In this document: piece by piece, positions 45,365 to 51,023 of the stretch
How positions within the stretch are numbered: position 1 is the first letter of the stretch
How the letters are laid out: the number at the start of each line of letters is the position of its first letter
NCBI GenBank assembly: GCA_027592785.1
Contig: JAQCLD010000006.1
Coordinates: 1-64,000 of the forward strand
Direction: 5' to 3'
DNA: 64,000 nt
From: Acidobacteriota bacterium
GTDB lineage: Bacteria > Acidobacteriota > Terriglobia > Bryobacterales > UBA6623
The notes under the pieces: model-generated
Told to the model about the DNA's origin: nothing
The model's input: the letters and a program-made list of their open reading frames with translations, nothing else
The model's database searches: none
Made by a program: the position numbers and the translations under genes

Positions 45365-46897
45365 TTAGACCCCTTGTAATACGTCTAGCACAGCGTTACG
45401 CATCACGGCCCGCGGCGCCGGCAGCTTCGTCCACAGTTCAAATTGGGCTGCCGCTTGTTCGATGAACATTTCGAGGCCCAATACGACGGTTTTTCCCTGT
45501 TCTCGGGCCCTCTTGATCAAGGCGGTTCGCAAAGGGTTATAGACCATGTCCAATACGATTTCTGCGGGAACAGCATCCGGGAACAGGTTGTCCTCCACAT
45601 TCGGCCACATGCCGACAGGCGTCGATTGCACCAAGATGTCGAAGCCGCGCTGGGTCGCTACGTCCCACGCCAATCCCTCCGCTCCCGTCGCCTGGGCCAG
45701 AGCGCGCACCTTCTGCGGGCGTCGGCCCGTGACGGCTACCCGTGAGCCCTTGGCCTGCAGTGCGAAAACGGCCGCCCTCGCCGCTCCCCCCGTCCCAACG
45801 ACCAAGGCCGTCGCGCCCTTCAATCGCCGCAGTCGTTCGAGCGGAGCTGTGACGCCGATCGCGTCGGTGTTCACCCCCCACCAATGCTTTCCCTTGCGGA
45901 AGACCGTATTGACGGCGCCGATCTGCAACGCCAGCTTGTCGCTGCCGGCTAGATGCCGCATCACCTTTTCCTTGTGCGGCAGCGTGACGCTGAAGCCCTC
46001 GACAGGCAGCTCTTCTGCGAAGCGAAAGAAGTCGCCCAACCGTTCCGATTCCACTCGAAACGGAAGGTAGACGCCGTCGACGCCGCACCTGCGCAAAGCC
46101 CGGTTATGGAGCACCGGAGACATGGAATGGGCTACCGGCGAGGCGATTACCCCGAAAACCCGCGTGTCCGGAGTGAGCTTGTCGACTCGATAGAGTCCTT
46201 GCATCACTGCGGCGGAATACTGTCCTGGCGCCGTTCCCGGCGATGTGTTGGGTGCTGCAAAGGTGAAAGCCGCTCCGCGGGAAGGCCCCAGAATGCGGCT
46301 CGCGGCGCCAACCTCTCCCATCGCCAGCACCACGAGCGGCGGCGCATCCGCCTGGCCGAGCAGCCGCAACAGGCGGCTGCTGTCGCTCGGCTTCACGCCG
46401 GCCACCGCCATCTTGTAGAGGTCCGCCCGGACCTTCCGCAGACGCCTCAAGACCTTCTCTGGCGACGGAGCCTTCTCAAAGTCGTGGAAAGAAACGACCA
46501 CCCGGCTTTTCTGCCTCAATCGCGCGGCGACGTCCGGAGCCGCTTCCGCTGTTTCAATCTCCAGGTCCAGCAGTTGAGCGCCGTTTGCTGCCGCCTTCGC
46601 CAGGATACGCTCCTGTTCTTCGATCGACCCTGCGAATCCTCCCTGCGCCTCTTTGCGGCGGCAGGTCGCCAGGATATTCAGTTTCGGCCAGCGCTCCCGT
46701 AGCAATTTGATCAGCGGCAGACCCGCTTCCGGCTGCGGCAACAGATCGAGCCGCAACTCAACGAACTTGGCCCCCGCTTCGCACTCAGCCAGCGCGAGAC
46801 GCTTGAGGCCGTTTGGGTCTGCAGCGCTGAGAGCAACGCAGATTGGCGGAAGGGAACGGACCGAAATCATCTGGGATGAGCGGCCGAGGACCGCCAA
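45365..46897 (-). CDS. aroDE: Fused 3-dehydroquinate dehydratase / shikimate dehydrogenase
   Basis: A 510-aa bifunctional enzyme. Residues 15-235 are type I dehydroquinate dehydratase (ELRLDLLP, VVVSFHDFEK with the catalytic His, and the Schiff-base Lys in ADLYKMAV). Residues 245-510 are shikimate dehydrogenase (SPVAHSMSPVLHN, FSVTLPHKEKV with the catalytic Lys, GVNTDAIG with the catalytic Asp, VVGTGGAARAA for NADP). The fusion channels two steps of the shikimate pathway and is known in plants, chlamydiae and some bacteria. It is first in the aroDE-trpE-trpG unit. The second Met at 46870 is a possible start. Confidence 0.92.
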   Translation of the reverse strand: MAVLGRSSQMISVRSLPPICVALSAADPNGLKRLALAECEAGAKFVELRLDLLPQPEAGLPLIKLLRERWPKLNILATCRRKEAQGGFAGSIEEQERILAKAAANGAQLLDLEIETAEAAPDVAARLRQKSRVVVSFHDFEKAPSPEKVLRRLRKVRADLYKMAVAGVKPSDSSRLLRLLGQADAPPLVVLAMGEVGAASRILGPSRGAAFTFAAPNTSPGTAPGQYSAAVMQGLYRVDKLTPDTRVFGVIASPVAHSMSPVLHNRALRRCGVDGVYLPFRVESERLGDFFRFAEELPVEGFSVTLPHKEKVMRHLAGSDKLALQIGAVNTVFRKGKHWWGVNTDAIGVTAPLERLRRLKGATALVVGTGGAARAAVFALQAKGSRVAVTGRRPQKVRALAQATGAEGLAWDVATQRGFDILVQSTPVGMWPNVEDNLFPDAVPAEIVLDMVYNPLRTALIKRAREQGKTVVLGLEMFIEQAAAQFELWTKLPAPRAVMRNAVLDVLQGV

Positions 46898-48237: not shown

Positions 48238-49131
48238 ATGGAACGCAAACAAGCACGTGATTTCCCCCAAGAGCTGCTCGACATCTTTGATCTGTATGTT
48301 CACGGCGATATCGACCGCCGCCAGTTCTTAGACCGCGCCAAAAAGTTTGCGGTCGGCGGCGTGACCGCCATGGCTCTGCTTGAGGCCCTCAGGCCGAACT
48401 TCGCCTGGGCGCAACAAGTCCCCAGCGACGATCGCCGGATTTCCACCTCGCGCGTGACCGTACCTTCGCCGCAAGGCAACGGAACGATCAACGGCTACTT
48501 GGTCCGACCGGCGAATCTCTCGGGCAAGGCGCCCGGAGTCCTCGTCGTACACGAGAACCGCGGCCTGAACCCCTATATCGAAGACGTCGCCCGCCGCCTA
48601 GGTACGGAAGGCTACGTCGCCCTGGCGCCGGATGGTTTGACCAGCGTCGGCGGCTATCCGGGCGACGAAGATAAGGGCCGCGAACTGTTCACGACCGTGG
48701 ACCGTCAGAAGATGGCCAACGATTTCATCGCCGCGGCCCGCTGGTTGAAAGCCCGCGAGGATTGCACCGGCAAGATCGGAGCCGTAGGTTTCTGCTTCGG
48801 CGGCGGCGTGAGCAACAACTTGGCCGTTCAACTGGGCGCCGACCTCTCAGCGGCCGTCCCGTTCTACGGCGCACAGCCCGCCGCCACAGACGTCGCCAAG
48901 ATCAAGGCTCCGCTTCTGGTCCAGAACGCGGGTCTCGACACGCGCATTAACGCTGGCTGGCCAGCCTACGAAGCCGCCCTGAAGGCTAACAACGTCAAGC
49001 ACGAGATGCACATGTACGAAGGCGCCAACCACGGCTTCCACAACGACACCACCCCGCGCTACGACGAAGCCGCCGCCAAACTGGCCTGGCAACGCACGCT
49101 AGCCTTCTTCGCCGCGAACTTGCGGGGGTGA
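48238..49131 (+). CDS. Dienelactone hydrolase family protein
   Basis: A 297-aa alpha/beta hydrolase. A strong AAGGAG places the start at 48238 (MERKQARDFPQELL). An N-terminal DRRQFLDRAKKFAVGG segment resembles a twin-arginine-like signal ending near FAWAQ. The nucleophile is the Cys in GAVGFCFGGGVSNNLA; Asp and His follow in GLDTRIN and GANHGFHND. The family hydrolyses dienelactones and related esters. Neighbours give no substrate. Confidence 0.9.
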   Translation: MERKQARDFPQELLDIFDLYVHGDIDRRQFLDRAKKFAVGGVTAMALLEALRPNFAWAQQVPSDDRRISTSRVTVPSPQGNGTINGYLVRPANLSGKAPGVLVVHENRGLNPYIEDVARRLGTEGYVALAPDGLTSVGGYPGDEDKGRELFTTVDRQKMANDFIAAARWLKAREDCTGKIGAVGFCFGGGVSNNLAVQLGADLSAAVPFYGAQPAATDVAKIKAPLLVQNAGLDTRINAGWPAYEAALKANNVKHEMHMYEGANHGFHNDTTPRYDEAAAKLAWQRTLAFFAANLRG

Positions 49132-49164: not shown

Positions 49165-49297
49165 GGTATATATACCGGTCCGTCTAGTGTCGTATCCGAT
49201 CAAGGTATATATACCCTGATCGGATACGACACTAACAACACTGGTATATATACCATAGTTGAAATCAACCTCAAGTTCCAACAGAGGTATATATACC
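49165..49297. promoter_or_regulatory. Array of four GGTATATATACC palindromes before the AbiEi-like gene
   Basis: The 12-bp palindrome GGTATATATACC occurs four times without a mismatch, at 49165-49176, 49204-49215, 49243-49254 and 49286-49297. Start distances are 39, 39 and 43 bp. The spacers differ in sequence. The fourth copy ends 31 bp before the antitoxin ATG. Iterated palindromes before a toxin-antitoxin gene are best read as operator sites for its own regulator; classical AbiEi binds two inverted repeats. Binding by this protein is inferred. Confidence 0.75.
49185..49234. repeat. 50-bp near-perfect palindrome centred on the second operator
   Basis: TAGTGTCGTATCCGATCA (49185-49202) is repeated in inverted form at 49217-49234, 18 of 18 bases. 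Between the arms are single bases A and C that do not pair and the self-complementary GGTATATATACC. It could extrude as a hairpin with a 12-bp inner palindrome, act as a terminator-like or cruciform structure, or protect the gene pair from upstream transcription. Confidence 0.85.
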
Positions 49298-49328: not shown

Positions 49329-50204
49329 ATGGCCCGCCGCGCTCCACTAGGCCTTGCCGTACAGCAGGTTGCGGCAGATTTTGACCAACTCCCGCAAACG
49401 GTCTTCTCCGGTCGCGCTCTGAACCAGCTTGTCGGAGAGCATGGCGCCGGCTGGCGGCTCCCGCCCCGTGAAGCTCCTATCGAACTCTTGCTTGAGAACA
49501 CCGCCCTGCGCGAGATCCAACTTGACTCGGTCAACCATCCCAACGTCGCCTCAGTCACCCGCTACGCCTGGGGTGAACCGGACGCCTTCGAGGTCGCCCT
49601 CTCGCTGAAAAAGAACGGCTACTTGTCGCACGGCAGCGCCGCCTTCCTCCACGGCCTCACCGACGAGCTGTCGAGCACCGCCTACTTGAACGTGGAGCAG
49701 AGCCCCAAGCCGAAGCCAGCCGGCCAACTAACCCAAGGAGGCATCGACCGGGCCTTCAGCGGCCAACAGCGGCAGTCGACAATGATTTACCGCTACGACG
49801 ACAGCCAGATTGTCATCCTCAACGGCAAAAATACGGGATTGCTCGAGGTCGGCGAGATCCTCTTCCAGGGTAAGAGCTACCTGGCCGCCAAACTGGAGCG
49901 GACCTTGATCGACATCGCCGTCCGGCCAGTTTACGCGGGCGGTGTCTATCAAGTGCTCGAAGCCTACCGCCGGGCGCGAGAGACGGTTTCCGTCGGCACG
50001 TTGCTGGCGACGTTGAAAAAACTCGACTACGCCTACCCCTATCACCAGGCGATCGGTTTCTATATGGAGCGGGCGGGTTACGAGTCTAAACTCTACGATC
50101 GGCTGAAGGCGCTTGGGATGGAGTTGGACTTCTACCTGGCCCACGGCAGCCGCGACCGCGAGTACTCATCAGACTGGCGGCTCTTCTACCCAAAGGGCTT
50201 GTAA
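49329..50204 (+). CDS. AbiEi-like antitoxin (type IV toxin-antitoxin)
   Basis: A 291-aa protein of the AbiEi/COG5340 type. The N-terminal part ([25 protein letters not shown]) fits a winged-helix DNA-binding domain. The middle part has the family pattern [29 protein letters not shown] and the late [18 protein letters not shown]. Antitoxins of this family repress their own promoter through inverted repeats and neutralise an AbiEii nucleotidyltransferase without forming a stable complex. Here the toxin-like gene is on the opposite strand and the stops overlap by 36 bp, unlike the usual co-directional abiEi-abiEii operon. Confidence 0.75.
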
Positions 50205-51023
50205 GCGGTTGACCTGGCCAATCACAAGGTCGAAGTAGACATCGTATTCTTCTAGATCCGCAGCTACTGAGTTGACGACAGCCGGCCAGTCTGGTCTGTG
50301 AAACTCTCGATAGTCGCCAACCAAACGCAGCAGATCGAGGGGAACTTGCTTCACTGCAAAAACCTGTCTCAACAGCTCCAAATTTTCGGCGCTGGCGATG
50401 TCGATGTTCGTACTGGTCAGAACTAGATGAATGTCGTAGAAATCACGCGCCCGCGCTCGGCCGAGACCAAACTCGTATTCGCGCATCTGCTGGCAAATCG
50501 CCCGCAGCTTCTCCACCACCACCATCTCCAGGCTGTAAACGTAGATCGTGTAGTTTTCTAATTCGAACGACCGCTTACCTATCGTGTACTCGTTCTTGCT
50601 CAGGTCCACAGTGAAGACGCGACGTTGGCCAGGGCCTGTCGTTTCGACGTCTAGACTACGCTTCTCGGGACTCAGTCGTTGAAACTTCGATTTTTCGATG
50701 ATCTTGAAGCAGAGTTCGTAACCGCCCCACCAGGGCCGCACGTCCGGACCTTCCAAGCGAGGTTTTGGCTGTAGCCGTTCATCGAAGACAGCGTAGCCGT
50801 GCGAATCAAAGCGATCTCTTAGAGCACGAAAGATTCTGGTCCGCGAACGATCCAGGTCTTCAAAATCGGTCTCGAGAGAAAAATCAAGATCGAGCGATGC
50901 CCGCTTGCTGATCCCGTGTATCAAACTCAGGGCGTTGCCGCCTTTGAGGACCAACTGGTCGAGAAGTTCGTCGTCGGAGAAAAGCGCGACGATTGTGAGT
51001 CGCCGGATTTCTTCAAACGTCAT
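50169..51023 (-). CDS. AbiEii-like nucleotidyltransferase toxin (type IV toxin-antitoxin)
   Basis: A 284-aa protein of the nucleotidyltransferase AbiEii/AbiGii family. The GS-type core appears as [13 protein letters not shown] followed by SLDLDFSLE, whose aspartates bind the metal and nucleotide. [17 protein letters not shown] and [13 protein letters not shown] are the family's later motifs with Lys and Asp. Such toxins transfer NTP-derived nucleotides to tRNA or other targets, stopping growth, and are used in phage defence. It is convergent with the AbiEi-like gene. Its own promoter would be at about 51030-51110. All active-site residues seem present. Confidence 0.8.

Follow-up and report, generated by a model that had tools for sequence, protein, structure and literature searches.

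A Convergent AbiE Module with Four Core Sites Ahead of Its Antitoxin Gene

The window—the whole 64-kb stretch of DNA analyzed here, drawn from a 203-contig, 4.55-Mb genome assembly—contains a toxin–antitoxin module whose two genes converge, preceded by a 197-bp gap that is occupied by four copies of the 12-mer GGTATATATACC (Table 1). The toxin falls in the DUF1814/AbiEii nucleotidyltransferase family (PF08843, 1.4e-27, above the cut-off; PADLOC AbiEii, 5.5e-19). Its partner matches the PADLOC AbiEi profile (1.9e-14) and scores 14.6 bits against PF09407, under the cut-off of 22.2; profile and predicted fold together give it the two-domain build of an AbiE antitoxin, with a winged-helix N terminus and an AbiEi C-terminal domain. 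Its AlphaFold2 model (pLDDT 90) has 1zel (Rv2827c) and 6y8q (Streptococcus agalactiae AbiEi) as its top PDB matches. The module is AbiE by its parts; it departs from AbiE in its operator design and in that the genes converge instead of forming a bicistronic operon, antitoxin then toxin. The YghX-family hydrolase encoded upstream is a bystander outside the toxin–antitoxin system. Elsewhere in the window, a 510-aa open reading frame on the minus strand (45365-46897) resembles a fused 3-dehydroquinate dehydratase/shikimate dehydrogenase.

Table 1. Genes and candidate operator elements at the AbiE locus (window coordinates)
Feature	Position	Strand	Remarks
YghX-family dienelactone hydrolase gene	48238..49131	+	Upstream neighbor
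Candidate operator core, copy 1 (GGTATATATACC)	49165..49176		Poor arms
Left 18-nt arm around copy 2	49185..49202
Candidate operator core, copy 2	49204..49215		Center of the 50-bp palindrome; dyad between 49209 and 49210
Right 18-nt arm	49217..49234		Perfect complement of 49185-49202
Candidate operator core, copy 3	49243..49254		Arms match only at outer CAAC/GTTG
Candidate operator core, copy 4	49286..49297		Proximal site; dyad ~37 bp ahead of the AbiEi start codon
AbiEi-type antitoxin gene	49329..50204	+	291 aa; predicted to fold like Rv2827c and S. agalactiae AbiEi
AbiEii-type nucleotidyltransferase toxin gene	50169..51023	-	284 aa; convergent, 36-bp overlap with the end of the antitoxin gene

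Around the second copy, the sequence reads TAGTGTCGTATCCGATCA-A-GGTATATATACC-C-TGATCGGATACGACACTA, so that 18-nt arms with 100% complementarity enclose the core and a single A/C pair beside it, one base per side, is left unpaired. The original prediction had described a 50-bp palindrome of this build, and we recovered it at exactly 49185-49234; its further claim that the other three core copies lack such arms also held, copy 3 keeping only its short outer match. Perfect arms are thus a property of site 2 alone. This is the strongest palindrome in the 64-kb window and the sole one there to score at least 10. Four copies of the 12-mer compare with 0.23 expected, a count reached in no shuffle. 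Sites 1 and 3 each lie 39 bp from site 2, the interval 49165-49254 is an 84% palindrome overall, and the intergenic strand has a single-strand folding energy of z = -8.5 relative to shuffles. Across the whole genome, GGTATATATACC occurs four times, always upstream of AbiEi, and the palindrome arm has no second occurrence at two or fewer mismatches. An Rfam search of the region returned only subthreshold microRNA-hairpin look-alikes, and no recognized promoter was found in the window.

Palindromes Upstream of AbiEi in Many Phyla

How constant is the association between such palindromes and AbiEi? Relatives were gathered from GTDB contigs, plasmids, one provirus-like contig, and further genome searches, giving a family set of about 55 loci from many phyla, located on chromosomes, plasmids, and one prophage. 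Almost all AbiEi genes in the group have one to four palindromes in the ~350 bp upstream; the proximal dyad usually lies 15 to 65 bp ahead of the start codon and the distal sites lie 80 to 250 bp away. Palindromes stand before AbiEi in ~37 loci of a first set and in 17 of the 18 loci that subsequent genome searches added as a second set, and ahead of none of 26 AbiEii toxin genes. In relatives, the gene on the far side of the palindromes is unrelated or divergently oriented, and the association with AbiEi holds regardless. All 20 copies of GGTATATATACC in eight other genomes that carry this gene family lie just upstream of AbiEi. The core changes by lineage—TATATATA in most, CGTACG in Hymenobacter, AT-poor in Burkholderiaceae—and is common to the sites within a locus. 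Half-lengths cluster at 13 to 22, with few at 8 to 12 and, in Bacillota, a sharp boundary near 14. Unusually long palindromes precede AbiEi at three loci, L087, L095, and L091, the last a perfect 60-bp palindrome (30 bp per half). Cores with little or no arm occur at three of the four window sites, both sites of L012, one site of L013, and the sites of L088, and arms are therefore dispensable at some sites.

The AbiEi and AbiEii genes converge in nearly all relatives examined, and the 3'-overlapping pair recurs in Acidobacteriota, Planctomycetota, Bacteroidota, Myxococcota, Pseudomonadota, Verrucomicrobiota, and Bacillota; in Lactobacillales, the genes are divergent. Six Lactobacillales plasmids (L058 to L061, L063, and L066) carry the same AbiEi group with a divergent toxin gene and have nearly identical palindrome copies between the two genes. 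On two Campylobacterota plasmids (L064 and L065), AbiEi and its palindromes adjoin a HipA-family toxin gene, with no annotated AbiEii adjacent. A degenerate module sits beside dnaK (L008/L043): its antitoxin has lost promoter, palindromes, and first codons, and its toxin matches lie in two overlapping reading frames, i.e., it is apparently frameshifted. Overall, the module is rare: of the genomes sampled from the searched phyla, ~1 to 3% have it. It was found in none of 17 other genomes from the same family as the window genome, which left the window site itself without a close orthologue for comparison, and the other genomes of a 396-genome phylum sample contained no paired GGTATATATACC core. 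A phage collection yielded no relatives and IMG/VR yielded one. The literature searched, a single library, returned no description of convergent AbiE or of such operators, and the locus also marks this convergent architecture.

Arms Are Conserved as Pairing Rather than as Sequence

Are the arms kept as sequence or as complementarity? Within a locus, half-positions 1 to 6 are common to all sites; from about position 10 outward, likeness between sites is at or near chance and each site's own arms are still complementary, Bacillota excepted. Over half-positions 10 to 14, own arms match at 0.81 to 0.96, versus 0.23 to 0.42 for other sites of the same locus. In the GC-rich set (45 sites), the values are 0.884 for own arms, 0.286 for another site of the locus, and 0.269 for shuffled sequence, with the caveat that the division into GC-rich and Bacillota sets was drawn after inspecting the data and that related sites are not fully independent. 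The second set (31 sites in the 17 of 18 loci) gave 0.961, 0.422, and 0.323, respectively; it was assembled after the hypothesis had formed, and ascertainment by palindrome scan inflates its own-arm pairing. Because such a scan selects for pairing, the fair test is provided by the 24 sites located solely by their core, the only ones free of this ascertainment: Their own arms match at 0.808, versus 0.233 for other sites.

Nine phage contigs from IMG/VR (L017 to L025) carry two GGTATATATACC sites 29 to 52 bp apart, far above chance; these sites are mostly armless, and the retrieved stretches contain no AbiE genes. Considered as family members, these pairs were rejected on both grounds and used instead as a control. 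Across 18 copies of the core in AbiE-free phage DNA, arm pairing was 0.344 (vs. 0.808, P = 3e-5), although the hosts differ.

Covariation between the arms follows the same pattern. The score was 1.127, compared with 0.225 ± 0.035 in shuffles and at most 0.27 with slid partners, and there were 130 both-sided changes versus 47 in shuffles, a signal lost when the partner was slid by one to three columns. Compensatory double changes include GCGGAG/CTCCGC (L100 and L102) versus GCGCAG/CTGCGC (L101) and CATCG/CGATG (L052) versus CAACA/TGTTG (L053). Arm conservation in relatives had been set beforehand as the point on which the palindrome's significance would turn, and the outcome is favorable: pairing is conserved, not sequence. 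A stem maintained in this way is one feature expected of a DNA hairpin/cruciform regulatory element. In Bacillota, the arms are also common between sites (0.674); a plain duplex operator would therefore suffice there, and the signal is weaker.

Putative Operators with Structure-Bearing Arms

We interpret the palindrome as one of four putative autoregulatory operators in the antitoxin promoter region of a convergent AbiE module. Autorepression by way of inverted repeats in the promoter has been described for AbiEi-type antitoxins (PMC3985639, PMC7319586), among them an AbiEi in Streptococcus suis (PMC11062541), and by analogy AbiEi should bind the cores here. The winged-helix protein would most likely read the 12-bp core as sequence and so repress its own promoter. 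Sequence reading by a dimer is insufficient to explain the arms, because these differ between sites and match within a site, which implies either that intrastrand pairing matters or that hairpin-templated mutation perfects the arms. The cluster of half-lengths and the armless phage sites favor a function. The arms may be kept because they let either strand of the operator form a hairpin, which in duplex DNA gives a cruciform. Either AbiEi would prefer this fold for binding, or the fold would compete with promoter opening; antitoxin expression would in this way be coupled to supercoiling or single-stranded DNA. That the sites are operators of AbiEi autoregulation, with arms that carry structure and a core read as sequence, we regard as having slightly better than even prospects. 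The pattern points to a control site that acts partly through DNA shape and not through sequence alone. Among the readings offered by the original prediction, an operator copy and a cruciform regulator fit sites that are confined to AbiEi promoters and whose arms appear conserved as complementarity; a terminator and a mobile unit found no support.

Could the arms act in RNA, or not act at all? Hairpins in transcripts might, for example, let read-through mRNA hide the antitoxin ribosome-binding site so that only mRNA from the native promoter is translated, and Shine–Dalgarno-like sequence does lie in the proximal 3' arm of L006, L009, L011, and L013, just as the palindrome almost abuts the start codon in Myxococcota (L099 to L102). 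G.U-type mismatches, however, number 4 for the sense and 5 for the antisense strand (884 of 924 pairs are Watson–Crick); with no excess for the sense strand, they give no sign of an RNA stem; on this test, we rejected an RNA hairpin as the main reading. In several Bacillota, moreover, the -10 hexamer forms the outer end of the palindrome's left arm. In L032, L034, L035, and L065, it begins 14 bp ahead of the dyad, with a TTGACA-like box at 16- to 17-bp spacing, and transcription is therefore predicted to start near the dyad, in which case native mRNA would hold only half of the palindrome. (In L034, at ~1165-1290, a TTGACT box precedes both the distal and the proximal palindrome at equal spacing, suggestive of tandem promoters with one operator each.) A general sequestration of Shine–Dalgarno sequence was likewise rejected, as most proximal arms do not cover one, and RNA hairpins leave the distal sites unexplained. 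We consider the RNA reading distinctly unlikely, while a read-through role at the proximal site is possible because some 3' arms contain Shine–Dalgarno sequence. The lack of G.U bias and the predicted Bacillota start sites favor constraint on the arms at the level of DNA.

At that level, the sites may be ordinary duplex operators, in which AbiEi dimers read the core only (~6 to 9 bp per half-site). In this view the outer arms lack function, and hairpin-templated replication errors of the quasipalindrome, template-switch kind, which nucleate at the core, have made them perfect by a neutral route. Cores are indeed conserved even where arms are missing (L012 and window sites 1, 3, and 4), template switching is a recognized mutational route by which quasipalindromes become perfect (PMC7202029), and the very unequal lengths of the perfect arms, up to 30 bp in L091, resemble copying products. 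Half-lengths, on the other hand, show no decay from the core, the same core is armless in phage DNA (although the hosts differ), and the scattered compensatory pairs in related loci resemble selection as much as copying; neutral perfection is in our judgment somewhat unlikely. The two remaining readings go back to the original prediction. Termination of the hydrolase transcript would suit a strongly folding site ~50 bp past that gene's stop codon, but neither a T-run nor a terminator-like site is present, and the palindromes of relatives track AbiEi whatever gene lies upstream, even a divergent one, which makes it very improbable. Most improbable of all are the joined ends of a small mobile element, which perfect arms resembling terminal repeats might suggest, or an assembly artifact: Core and arm are confined to one locus with no dispersed copies, arm sequences differ from copy to copy, and complete plasmid records show the same architecture.

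What would follow if the arms of these operators act as structure? Bacterial operators are usually conserved as sequence, whereas here similarity between sites ends near the core and self-complementarity runs several base pairs further. The AbiEi operators would then represent promoters gated by structure, a family that occurs naturally in many phyla and on plasmids, and an anti-phage toxin–antitoxin module could sense DNA topology. More tentatively, and as a possibility we would not yet bet on, a widespread family of toxin–antitoxin repressors may have operators recognized or switched as DNA hairpins or cruciforms, the core serving as address and the varying complementary arms as shape, so that antitoxin transcription senses supercoiling or single-stranded DNA, for instance at phage infection or plasmid entry.

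Comparison with Known Systems

A promoter element active as an extruded DNA hairpin has a precedent in the hairpin promoters of the bacteriophage N4 virion RNA polymerase; these are recognized by a phage polymerase, have no toxin–antitoxin link, and possess much shorter stems than the palindromes described here. Among toxin–antitoxin systems, AbiE of S. agalactiae (type IV; PMC3985639) has an antitoxin of like fold (6y8q, a top structural match), a nucleotidyltransferase toxin, and inverted repeats over the antitoxin promoter near the start codon. It differs from the window module in its co-directional, overlapping operon and in its operator, one pair of 23-bp repeats 3 bp apart, whereas window-type loci have one to four separate, self-contained palindromes with arms that vary between copies. 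The best structural match, 1zel, comes from Rv2827c-Rv2826c of Mycobacterium tuberculosis, which likewise has four repeats in the antitoxin promoter and antitoxin autoregulation (PMC7319586); there, however, the repeats form two pairs of 23 bp that share a sequence consensus, the genes are arranged as an operon, and the text consulted does not mention pairing conserved instead of sequence.

For a stem kept as pairing around a center kept as sequence, the closest experimentally supported analogue comes from diversity-generating retroelements, in their hairpin/cruciform target element (PMC3240598). In that element, the structure of the stem matters and its sequence can vary, as demonstrated by compensatory mutation, and the center is constrained in sequence. 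It serves retrohoming downstream of the variable repeat and consists of a GC-rich 7- to 10-bp stem with a 4-nt loop, whereas the window element is a putative promoter element built around a 12-bp palindromic core.
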